Below, one piece after another: positions 36,001 to 43,254 of a stretch of DNA of 64,000 nucleotides. The stretch's first letter is position 1. Each line of letters starts with the position of its first letter. Source of the DNA: an alpha proteobacterium U9-1i (GTDB taxonomy: Bacteria; Pseudomonadota; Alphaproteobacteria; Caulobacterales; Aquidulcibacteraceae); the NCBI GenBank assembly GCA_000974665.1, contig BBSY01000002.1:372001-436000 (forward strand), read 5' to 3'. Made by a program: the position numbers and the translations under genes. Under the pieces are notes generated by a model. The model did not search any database. It had not been told where the DNA came from and saw nothing but the letters and a program-made list of their open reading frames with translations.

Positions 36001-36402
36001 TCAGCGCGCCAGTGCGCTCTTGATCGCTTCGGCGCGCGCGATCACCCGTTCGGCGTGGGCGCGTTTGCTTTCGTTGCCGGCGTCGCGCAGATCTTCCTGC
36101 GCGTCCTTCAACTCTTGCTCCAGTGACGCCGCATCGACATCGGCCAGATCGATCGCTTCCTCGGCCAACACCGTAAGCCCTTCCGGCGTCACATCGGCAA
36201 AGCCGCCATTGACGAAGATGCGCCGCTCGCTGCCGTCATCGAGAATGCGCAAGGCGCCGGGCTTCACCATGCTCATCACCGGCGCATGGTTCGGCGACAC
36301 GCCGAACTCGCCTTCCGAGCCCGGCACCACGACGTGGTCCACTAGGCCATGGAACACTTCGCGTTCCGGCGAGACGAGTGCGAAAGAGAGTTTCTCGGTC
36401 AA
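36001..36402 (-). CDS. atpC: F1 ATP synthase epsilon subunit
   Basis: A 133-residue central-stalk and regulatory subunit. SFALVSPEREVFHGLVDHVV and GEFGVSPNHAPVMSMVKPG form the N-terminal beta-sandwich, and the C-terminal helices are Ala/Glu/Arg rich. It begins directly after the atpD stop. It is the last gene of the F1 operon in this window. Confidence 0.95.
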   Translation of the reverse strand: MTEKLSFALVSPEREVFHGLVDHVVVPGSEGEFGVSPNHAPVMSMVKPGALRILDDGSERRIFVNGGFADVTPEGLTVLAEEAIDLADVDAASLEQELKDAQEDLRDAGNESKRAHAERVIARAEAIKSALAR

Positions 36403-37827
36403 TTACGCGGCCTCCGCAGCCATCTTTTGCGCTTTGGCGATCGCCTGCTCGATGGTGCCGACCATGTAGAAGGCAGGCTCCGGCAGGTGATCGTATTCGC
36501 CGTCCACCAAACCCTTGAAGCCGCGGATCGTGTCCTTGATGTCCACGAGCACGCCTGGCGAGTTTGTGAATGCTTCAGCGACGTGGAACGGCTGAGACAG
36601 GAAACGCTCAACCTTCCGCGCGCGCGCGACGGTGAGCTTGTCGTCTTCCGAAAGCTCGTCCATGCCGAGAATGGCGATGATGTCCTGCAGCGACTTGTAG
36701 CGCTGGAGCGTCTCTTGGACCTTCCGCGCGACGTCGTAATGCTCTTGGCCGACGACGTTCGGATCGAGAATCCGCGACGTGGAATCGAGCGGGTCGACGG
36801 CGGGGTAAATGCCCTTTTCTGAGATCGCGCGGTTCAACACGGTCGTCGCATCCAAGTGCGCGAACGACGTGGCCGGCGCCGGGTCGGTCAAATCGTCGGC
36901 CGGAACGTAGATGGCCTGCACCGACGTGATCGAACCCTTGGTGGTGGAGGTGATGCGCTCCTGCATCTGACCCATTTCGGTCGCGAGCGTCGGCTGATAG
37001 CCGACCGCCGACGGAATACGGCCGAGCAGCGCCGACACTTCCGAGCCCGCTTGCGTGAAGCGGAAGATGTTGTCGACGAAGAACAGAATGTCCTTGCCCT
37101 GATCGCGGAAGTGTTCGGCGATGGTGAGGCCTGAGAGCGCAACGCGTGCGCGCGCGCCCGGCGGTTCATTCATCTGGCCGAACACCAAAGCGCAGCGCGA
37201 GCCTTGGCCGCCACCGGCGACGTTCACGCCGGACTCGATCATTTCGTGGTAAAGGTCGTTGCCTTCGCGCGTGCGTTCACCCACGCCGGCGAACACCGAA
37301 TAACCGCCATACGCCTTGGCGATGTTGTTGATCAGCTCTTGGATCAAAACCGTCTTGCCGACGCCGGCGCCGCCGAAGAGGCCGATCTTGCCGCCCTTCG
37401 AGTACGGGCACAGCAGATCGACGACCTTGATGCCGGTGACGAGAATTTCCGGCACCGGCTTTTGATCGACGAACGCCGGCGCGAGTTGGTGGATCGCGCG
37501 CTTGTGCTCGCTCTTCACCGCCGGGCCATCGTCCACTGGTTCGCCGATGACGTTCAGGATGCGGCCGAGGGTTTCTTCGCCCACCGGCACCATAATCGGC
37601 GCGCCGGTATCGCCCACTTCCTGGCCGCGGACGAGACCGTCGGTCGTGTCCATGGCGATGGTGCGCACCGAGCTTTCGCCCAAATGCGTCGCCACTTCGA
37701 GCACCAGACGGTTCTTGCCGTTCATGGTCTCAAGTGCGTTGTAAATATCCGGCAACGGGCCATCGAACTCGACGTCGACAACGGCGCCGATCACTTGCGA
37801 CACGCGGCCTTTCATGGGTTTCGTCAT
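36403..37827 (-). CDS. atpD: F1 ATP synthase beta subunit
   Basis: The catalytic subunit, 474 residues. Walker A is [13 protein letters not shown] near residue 150, [20 protein letters not shown] follows, and the region ending [16 protein letters not shown] carries Walker [13 protein letters not shown] lies right before the ATG, a strong ribosome-binding site. It is separated from atpG by three other genes, which is unusual (see findings). Confidence 0.97.
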
Positions 37828-37875
37828 CTCTCTTCTCTTCCTCGTCGTTCCTGTGGGCCGCGTGGGCCACCCGTC

Positions 37876-37962
37876 CTAATTCATCAATCTCGCCGCGATC
37901 ACGCCCGCGACCACGGCCACAAACGGCGCGATGATCAGCGCGAGGCGTGCAACGCGCTTCAC
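37876..37962 (-). CDS. Possible 28-residue membrane microprotein between ohr and atpD
   Basis: GTG start at 37962, TAG at 37876-37878. The predicted peptide begins VKRVARLALII, has a single hydrophobic stretch of about 20 residues (IIAPFVAVVAGVIAA) and a basic N terminus. GAAGG lies just before the GTG, and the start shares one base with the ohr stop (TAGTG), so translation could be coupled. It is too short for confident homology. The alternative is chance reading of a non-coding gap. Confidence 0.45.
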   Translation of the reverse strand: MKRVARLALIIAPFVAVVAGVIAARLMN

Positions 37963-40507: not shown

Positions 40508-41124
40508 CGCTGCGCCACCACCAAACGCCCCGCAACGGCAACGAAGAAAACGCCGATGGCGCCCTCAAGCCAGCGCACGAACGTGCGGCTCCACGAAATT
40601 TTGCGCGCACGGCTTGCGGCGAAGGCGATGCACGGCATCCAGATCGCCGCTGTCGCGTAATGGATCGCGATCAGCAGCACACCGATCGCCGGCGCGCTCG
40701 GACCAGATGCGAATTGCGGCAACACCGCCAGATAAAACAGCGCCACCTTCGGGTTCAGCGCATTCGTCAAGAATGCTTGCATGAATGGCTGGCTCAACTC
40801 GATCGGCTTAGCGGGCGCCGTTTCGGGCTTCCCGCGCAGCGCGTTCCAGATGAGGCCCGCGCCAAGCCACGCCAGATAAATAGCGCCGATGATCTTCACC
40901 GCGAGGAACAAGGCCGGGATTGCCACCAGCACGTTGAGCAACCCGAAGCCGATCAACGCCGCGTAGTAAAATCCACCCGCGACAATGCCCGCCGCCGCCG
41001 CCAAGCCTGCGCGCAATCCACCACGCGCCGCGTGGCTCGCAACCAGGAGCGTGTCCGGTCCGGGAGAGAGCGTCGCGGCCAGCGCAAGCGCTGTCCAGGC
41101 CAAGAGAGCGGCGGGTTCGATCAC
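40504..41124 (-). CDS. LysE-family amino-acid exporter
   Basis: A 206-residue inner-membrane protein with about six helices. The N-terminal motif [20 protein letters not shown] and [16 protein letters not shown] are typical of LysE/RhtB exporters. The substrate is unknown. The GTG start overlaps the atpA TGA (GTGA), so it is read with atpA. A transport gene inside an F1 operon is unusual. Confidence 0.9.
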
Positions 41125-42662
41125 GCGCTGAACACGCCCGCGAATTCGTCGAGCGCCGCCTTCAGCTTGCCTTCAAGCGTCCCGGCTTTGTCGAATTCCT
41201 TCTTGGTGCGAATGTCGTTCAAGATGTCGCTCTTCTTCGAACGCATCCACGAGACGAGTTCGCCCTCGTAGCGACGCACGTCGTTCACCGCCACCTTATC
41301 GGTGTAACCACGCGTGCCCGCGAAAATCAGCACGATCTGCTCTTCAACCGGCACTGGCGCGAACTGGTTCTGCTTCAGCAGTTCCGTGAGGCGCGCCCCG
41401 CGATTGAGCAGGCGCTGCGTGGCTGCGTCGAGATCGGAGCCGAACTTCGCGAACGCCGCCATTTCGCGGTATTGCGCGAGCTCGCCCTTCAGCGGGCCGG
41501 CGGCTTGCTTCATCGCCTTGATCTGCGCGTTGCCGCCGACGCGCGACACCGAGATACCAACGTTCACCGCCGGACGAATACCGGAGAAGAAGAGATCGGT
41601 TTCAAGGAAGATTTGCCCGTCGGTGATCGAGATCACGTTGGTCGGAATGTAGGCCGACACGTCGTTGGCTTGCGTTTCGATGACCGGCAGCGCCGTCAGC
41701 GAACCCGCGCCATTGTCCTCGTTCAGCTTCGCCGAACGCTCCAGCAGGCGGGAGTGCAGGTAGAACACGTCGCCCGGATAGGCTTCGCGGCCCGGCGGGC
41801 GGCGCAGCAACAGCGACATCTGGCGATACGCCACGGCCTGTTTGGACAAGTCATCATAAATGATGAGCGCGTGCATGCCGTTGTCGCGGAAATACTCGCC
41901 CATGGCGCAGCCGGCGAACGGCGCCAGGAATTGCAGCGGCGCCGGCTCTGAAGCGGTCGCGGCGACGATGATCGAATATTTCAGCGCGCCCTTGTCCTCG
42001 AGCATCTTGACGATCTGAGCGACCGTCGAGCGCTTTTGCCCGATGACGACGTAAATGCAGTAGAGCTTCTCGCTCTCCGGCAAATTCTTATCGTGCGCAT
42101 CCTTCTGGTAGAGGATCGTGTCGATGGCGATCGCAGTCTTGCCGGTTTGGCGATCGCCGATGATCAGTTCGCGTTGACCGCGGCCGACAGGGATCAGCGC
42201 ATCGATCGCCTTGATGCCGGTCTGCATCGGCTCGTGCACCGACTTACGCGGGATGATGCCCGGCGCTTTCATGTCGACGACACGGCGTTCGGTGGCGGCG
42301 ATCGGGCCTTTGCCATCGATCGGCTCGCCCAGCGGGTTCACGACGCGGCCCAGAAGCGCCTTGCCGACAGGAACGTCGACGATGGCGCCAAGGCGCTTCA
42401 CGGTGTCGCCTTCCTTCAAGCCGCGGTCTTCGCCGAAGATCACGACGCCGACATTGTCGCGCTCGAGGTTGAGGGCCATGCCCTTCACGCCGCCGGGGAA
42501 CTCGACCATTTCGCCGGCCTGAACTTTTTCCAGGCCGTAGACGCGGGCGATACCGTCGCCGACCGACAGCACGCGGCCGACTTCAGCGACCTTGGCTTCA
42601 GCGCCGAAGCCTTTGATCTGTTCTTTCAGGATGGCGGAGATTTCAGCGGCGCGAACGTCCAT
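41121..42662 (-). CDS. atpA: F1 ATP synthase alpha subunit
   Basis: The non-catalytic nucleotide-binding subunit, about 513 residues from [12 protein letters not shown]. Walker A is [13 protein letters not shown] near residue 170; [15 protein letters not shown] is the conserved alpha signature. A start three codons earlier (MTLMDVR) is possible, but MDVRAAE matches the family start. Separated from atpH by 31 bases. Confidence 0.96.
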
Positions 42663-42693
42663 GAGCGTCATGACCTCGTATTCGTCGAACGGA

Positions 42694-43254
42694 TTAAGCG
42701 GATTTCAGCTGGAGGCGGAGCGCGTCCAGCTTGGATTTGACGGAAGCGTCGAATTGCTTGGAGCCGACGCGGACGACAAAGCCGCCGATCAGGCTCTCAT
42801 CAACGCGGGTTTCGGCTTCAACCTTGGCGCCCAATTGCTTGGAGAGCGCTTCAAGGATCGAAGCCTGCTCCGCCGCGCCCAAGGACTTGGCGGAAACGAT
42901 TTCAACCTGACGGGCGCCCCGGTGGCGCGCCAATAAGGCACGGAATGTCGATAGCACGCCTGGCAGTTCGCCAGCGCGGCGGTTCTGAGCGGCCACGCCA
43001 ATCAGCTTCCGGCCTAGATCGCTCATGCCGATCTTCGCGGCCACGGCCGTCAGCGCGCGTGATTTCTCTTCCGGATCGATCAGCGGCGAGCGCGCGGCCT
43101 CACGCAGGTCGGCGCTGGCCTTCCAGGCCGCGTCAAACTTCTGAAAATCGGCCTCAAGCGCGTCTAACCCATTGGCGTCACGCGCCAATTCGAACACGGC
43201 CTGCGCGTAGCGCGCCGCTGCTTCGGAAGCTTCGCCGTCTGCTCTGTCGGCCAC
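42694..43254 (-). CDS. atpH: F1 ATP synthase delta subunit
   Basis: Peripheral stalk (OSCP-type) subunit, 186 residues. [20 protein letters not shown] near the N terminus and the C-terminal segment [20 protein letters not shown] with [12 protein letters not shown] are typical. It leads the F1 operon; F0 genes are not in the window, as expected for alphaproteobacteria. Confidence 0.94.

Follow-up and report, generated by a model that had tools for sequence, protein, structure and literature searches.

Passenger genes in the F1 operon

We analyzed a 64,000-nucleotide stretch of the genome of the alphaproteobacterium U9-1i (GenBank assembly GCA_000974665.1, contig BBSY01000002.1, positions 372,001 to 436,000; hereafter the window), in which the genes for the F1 part of ATP synthase are interrupted by unrelated genes, among them ohr, which codes for a peroxidase of the Ohr family. 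The F1 genes stand in the order delta, alpha, gamma, beta, epsilon on the minus strand: atpH (delta subunit; 43254–42694, GTG start; PF00213, E = 1.5e-45), atpA (alpha subunit; 42671–41121; PF00006, PF00306 and PF02874), atpG (gamma subunit; 40117–39239; PF00231, E = 1.4e-93), atpD (beta subunit; 37827–36403; PF00006 and PF02874), and atpC (epsilon subunit; 36402–36001, TTG start; PF02823, E = 2.2e-27), all window gene coordinates including the stop codon. They are not contiguous, with gaps of 1,003 bases between atpA and atpG and 1,411 bases between atpG and atpD, and five passenger genes on the same strand occupy these two gaps. Between atpA and atpG lie a LysE-family exporter gene (41124–40504, GTG start; PF01810, E = 5.7e-35) and a small lipoprotein-like gene of 129 aa (40507–40118), which matched no Pfam family and gave only a sub-threshold signal-peptide match in NCBIfam. 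Between atpG and atpD lie a PhyH-family dioxygenase gene (39236–38394, GTG start; PF05721, E = 2.2e-15), ohr (38381–37962; TIGR03561), and a GTG-initiated gene of 28 codons for a hydrophobic, single-span peptide of 28 aa (37962–37876).

The inserts are tightly packed, their junctions varying between an overlap of 4 bases and a gap of 12. LysE overlaps both atpA and the lipoprotein-like gene by 4 bases, the latter abuts atpG (0 bases), PhyH follows atpG after 2 bases and ohr follows PhyH after 12, and ohr overlaps the 28-codon gene by 1 base; the exception is the 48 bases between the 28-codon gene and atpD. Elsewhere, atpH and atpA are 22 bases apart and atpD and atpC 0. An earlier note on this DNA, made from the sequence alone, had placed passengers in these two gaps, all on one strand, mostly joined by 0–12-base gaps or 1–4-base overlaps, with GTG starts for LysE, PhyH, and the 28-codon gene; the gene calls and coordinates bear this out, the atpH–atpA spacing and the gap before atpD being the exceptions.

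Because the inserts are so closely packed, a single mRNA across the F1 genes and their passengers is likely. The earlier note had held that promoters and terminators belonging to the inserted genes, or an assembly error, would speak against an integrated operon. The only promoter-like site found in a consensus scan is on the non-coding strand (also the sole one in the sub-region scan), and the coding strand has none, in a scan that knows sigma-70-type sites only; terminator-like sites occur at chance level (9 against a shuffle mean of 8.6, and 5 against 4.3 in the sub-region). It is improbable that ohr and its neighbors have promoters of their own and give transcripts separate from those of the atp genes: the 48-base gap before atpD, and promoters of the host's group that may not fit a sigma-70 scan, would allow it, but the other insert junctions, the coding strand free of promoter-like sites, and the chance-level terminators argue the other way.

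ATP synthase operons serve as a textbook case of fixed gene order. In a survey of ATP synthase transcription units (PMC5709465), this constancy is stressed and interruption is expected to be harmful; the window shares the alphaproteobacterial delta-alpha-gamma-beta-epsilon order and strand given there but differs in its five passengers. To place the locus among its relatives, we turned to 29 same-genus genomes, 25 of which have atpG and atpD on one contig, giving 26 loci with the window (of those outside this set, G004 and G015 gave no atpG match, and in G006 and G007 the contig ends inside atpG). Gaps of more than 200 bp occur between atpH and atpA in 0 of 21 loci, between atpA and atpG in 5 of 25, between atpG and atpD in 24 of 26, and between atpD and atpC in 22 of 23, where the window's contiguous pair is the sole exception, a point absent from the earlier note. 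The last two counts make an interrupted F1 operon the rule in this genus, so that the earlier premise of normally contiguous genes fails there. Relatives do keep ohr and the 28-aa peptide widely, as a check proposed in that note would look for, but LysE and PhyH are patchy, and the lipoprotein-like gene is a guest of the window only.

Since ohr, the 28-codon gene, and LysE occur at the same places in independent genomes, an assembly error is unlikely for these three, and a window oddity was ruled out for them. PhyH recurs in one other locus and the lipoprotein-like gene in none, which leaves the latter without such support; even so, we give an artefact of assembly or annotation next to no probability.

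The Ohr of the atpG–atpD gap

The window Ohr scores 150.3 bits against TIGR03561, above the curated cut-off of 88.85, and is the sole Ohr of its genome. We found ohr in the atpG–atpD gap (hereafter the slot) in 22 of the 26 genus loci. Among the genomes G000–G022, 18 of 23 carry Ohr, always as a single copy, and every one of these copies is at the atp locus: 17 adjoin atpG by coordinates, and that of G004 lies directly before atpD. A genome of a neighboring genus, G036, has a slot ohr too (61%). The gene is under purifying selection, with a pN/pS of 0.23 over 21 loci; this value, like that of the 28-aa peptide below, is a raw sum over pairs without saturation correction, and a corresponding value for atpG was set aside on account of its indels.

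Outside the genus, a slot Ohr recurs in 3 of 77 named loci, whose records bear the titles Hyphomicrobium, Methylobacterium, and Methylocystis, and each of these genomes yielded a single Ohr match. To survey this more widely, we searched 397 genomes, all from the order to which the Methylocystis record belongs, with a profile built from 10 slot Ohrs; that this order is distinct from the window's was read from one genome common to both samples at the same coordinates (G361, "same class", and G527). A match at 1e-30 was present in 235 genomes, and the scores split in two: 22 genomes reached at least 191 bits, and the others began at 156.5 and went down from there. When we located the best 30 of the 235 matches, all 22 high scorers occupied the slot, in the orientation of the flanking atp genes, and none of the next 8 did; 20 of the 22 were outside the profile, two having contributed to it. 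In a third group serving as a control (the order of G114, 56 genomes), 0 of 14 Ohr loci were near atp genes.

Phylogeny places the 39 slot Ohrs and 62 other Ohrs on the two sides of a single branch with support of 100/99, the window Ohr falling on the slot side. The 62 are all away from atp genes, 24 by coordinates (on another contig or far off) and 38 by their flanks (22 + 16), and 39 of them were taken from a class sample of 387 genomes, in which there were 79 other carriers; of the slot Ohrs of the window's family, 16 of 23 were taken. A smaller tree, without L072–L074 (copies of genus loci) and with L152 (a copy of the window's Ohr) mislabeled "elsewhere", gives the same split. All 101 Ohr rows retain R16, E48, C58, and C121 (numbered as in the window Ohr), the counterparts of the catalytic Arg19, Glu51, Cys61, and Cys125 of Xylella Ohr (PMC5962072). 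The slot side also has a signature in which most of the 62 others differ, for example L23 (37/39), L53 (34/39), D73 (38/39), and P132 (35/39). On these alignments and trees, slot Ohrs form a branch of their own within the Ohr family.

Canonical ohr adjoins ohrR and is induced by organic peroxide, for example in Sinorhizobium meliloti (PMC3107159). Compared with the ohr–ohrR pair as described there, the window has an Ohr-family enzyme with the same catalytic residues but differs in that its ohr sits between atpG and atpD in a genome without an OhrR-grade match. Of 22 ohr loci away from the slot, at least 12 contain an OhrR-like gene no more than 1.5 kb distant, judged by a sequence motif. We built an OhrR profile from eight OhrR-like proteins of non-slot ohr loci and took scores of at least 146 bits as OhrR-grade; such scores were reached in G041, G049, G053, and G054, near ohr in the four loci examined. 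In the window genome, the best score is 43 bits against this threshold of 146, and no ohrR stands beside ohr, whose neighbors are PhyH and the 28-codon gene. With a best score of 43 bits, the window ohr is under no recognizable OhrR.

OhrR-like genes of five genus genomes (L243, L245, L246, L247, and L249) have a divergent neighbor that is hydrolase-like on an open-reading-frame reading, with no ohr in the locus. Such a pairing of an OhrR-like MarR gene with a divergent, hydrolase-like one resembles EstR–EstC of Agrobacterium (PMC5201249); it differs from the window arrangement in lying outside the atp locus, and the window genome lacks it at OhrR-grade scores.

Other guests and the history of the slot

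The second recurrent occupant of the slot is the 28-aa peptide gene, present in 15 of the 26 genus loci. Comparison of 14 of the 15 copies gave a pN/pS of 0.30, with 608, 295, and 1240 differences at codon positions 1, 2, and 3, which shows that the peptide is under purifying selection. It occurs between atpG and atpD without ohr in L054, and in L032 a 114-aa protein with a similar beginning stands in its place. The peptide matched no family, and a gap scan of 80 named loci (three of them copies of genus loci) and a further 14 from the family and order found none outside the genus. The 80-aa microprotein frame in the list of open reading frames (37972–37730) was dropped, as it overlaps atpD and the conserved unit is 28 aa, ending at 37876.

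The remaining guests of the window are patchy. LysE occupies the atpA–atpG gap in 5 of 25 genus loci, which fall into four separate F1-tree lineages, and in 5 of 5 its start is the last aligned base of atpA (these counts cover atp loci only). The lipoprotein-like gene has no match in the other atp loci; among 37 genomes searched, G008, G010, and G011 gave weak matches away from their atp loci. PhyH lies between atpG and atpD in 2 of 26 loci, the window and L036 (46%). These slot copies may have arrived independently of each other, as the window PhyH is nearer to a PhyH of G040 away from the atp genes (49–50%) than to the L036 copy (46%). The earlier note had suggested a functional tie of the passengers to respiration; for LysE and PhyH this patchy occurrence does not support it, nor does the restriction of the lipoprotein-like gene to the window.

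Unrelated genes enter the slot as well. RHH/PIN toxin-antitoxin-like genes lie in the atpG–atpD gap of L035 (6932–7578), and the same clusters occur in L034 and L044; they adjoin ohr in L034 and stand without ohr in L035 and L044. Unrelated lineages (L051, L077, L132/L216, L136, and L222) also share in this gap a coiled-coil-like protein, about 75 aa long and upstream of ohr in L051, L132, and L222, in a search that covered atp loci only. Plasmid records, the sole mobile collection searched, held no match to the slot Ohr of L132 (E 1e-30) or to the coiled-coil slot protein of L222 (1e-8). The insertion of new genes into existing operons is a general mode of operon evolution. It accounts for the LysE, PhyH, lipoprotein-like, and toxin-antitoxin guests; Ohr differs in its fixed match of branch and slot in two orders.

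To ask how slot Ohr arose, we made a quick AtpG+AtpD tree of 116 loci, 29 with slot Ohr, leaving out L211 and L216 (copies of L117 and L132). In the other order, carriers cluster with their own relatives, and therefore ohr did not bring the F1 genes with it by transfer. Either an old insertion has been lost many times, or ohr has moved between lineages into the same place. Distances between Ohrs correlate with those between AtpGs in the other order (r = 0.77, 23 loci).

Several observations weigh against the F1-linked reading of Ohr proposed below. Slot presence is patchy: it requires at least nine changes on the AtpG+AtpD tree, six of them forced by starred branches, is seen in 22 of 397 genomes in the other order, and is lacking in 4 of the 26 genus loci. 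Two of these four, G011 and G012 (91% and 79% complete), have no Ohr at all, with the slot sequenced and without ohr, and therefore Ohr is dispensable. The gap is not Ohr-specific, because other guests, including the toxin-antitoxin genes, occupy it. An OhrR-grade protein is present in 5 of 30 genus genomes (G001, G014, G020, G023, and G024), though its neighbor there is a gene other than ohr. Within the genus, Ohr and AtpG distances do not correlate (r = −0.08, 15 loci); this comparison is uninformative, because AtpG and AtpD distances fail to correlate there too (0.05).

Much of this fits an alternative in which the atpG–atpD and atpD–atpC gaps merely tolerate insertions, steady strong transcription keeps whatever useful genes land there, and Ohr was an early guest unconnected with ATP synthase, its separate branch being a product of descent, or of recombination between the atp genes on either side, and not of function. 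The many unrelated guests in the same gaps, the patchy distribution of slot Ohr, and its loss without replacement in G011 and G012 all favor such a neutral landing site. Against it stand two findings: one branch of Ohr coincides with one slot in two orders, and all 18 carriers among G000–G022 have their single Ohr at the atp locus. We regard this account as a possible but fairly unlikely one. That one branch matches one slot argues against pure chance, but the slot Ohr may still have been retained through steady transcription and may have spread by recombination.

A proposed role for slot Ohr, and further guests

We consider it somewhat probable that these loci hold an Ohr branch linked to the F1 operon, within an operon tolerant of insertions, such that peroxide defense scales with ATP synthase. 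In this reading, the F1 operon of the genus accepts insertions of several kinds: a long-kept, position-specific ohr, the conserved 28-aa gene, and the patchy LysE, lipoprotein-like, and PhyH genes. Ohr would be translated from the atp mRNA, so that its amount would track ATP synthase and respiratory capacity and not the usual peroxide switch, OhrR. The enzyme would then act on lipid hydroperoxides formed at the respiring membrane, reducing them with electrons supplied by lipoylated proteins, as for Xylella Ohr (PMC5962072). The coupling to respiratory capacity proposed in the earlier note thus gains comparative support for Ohr, through the slot branch in two orders and the missing OhrR-grade match.

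A stronger version would make slot Ohr a dedicated companion of ATP synthase adapted to shield F1 or its surrounding membrane from lipid peroxides, with the 28-aa peptide as an unrecognized ATP-synthase-associated or membrane-recruiting factor, the two forming an antioxidant module dosed by respiration and not by a peroxide sensor; this we hold to be doubtful.

Among the matches listed in the open-licence literature, we found no description of an Ohr inside an ATP synthase operon. The enzyme family and the operon are both known, and it is their linkage alone that is new with respect to those matches. If the proposed scaling of peroxide defense with ATP synthase is true, a peroxidase branch tied to an operon slot in two orders would amount to a defense wired to energy production by gene position and not by a sensor, and why such passengers persist would become directly testable in cultured strains.

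The atpD–atpC gap, empty in the window, has guests of its own elsewhere in the genus. A family of about 150 aa, often as a tandem pair (for example L036 5011–5945 and L040 4013–4947; 21 members clustered), has no Pfam or NCBIfam match and is absent from the window's atpD–atpC gap. Short proteins with a start like xxFxxKLGP and, where the end is visible, a terminal lysine run and GWF occur in this gap in L032, L033, L037, L039, L042, L044, L045, L048, L051, and L069; that of L033, the one tested, gave no Pfam match. In L069 (G014), atpG and ohr are each in two pieces, possibly through sequencing error. In other alphaproteobacteria, the atpA–atpG gap holds single guests that are methyltransferase-like (L134, 7361–7993) or I78-inhibitor-like (L128, 7604–7984), and membrane peptides of 48–50 aa lie there in L102 (7829–7981) and L147 (1439–1585).

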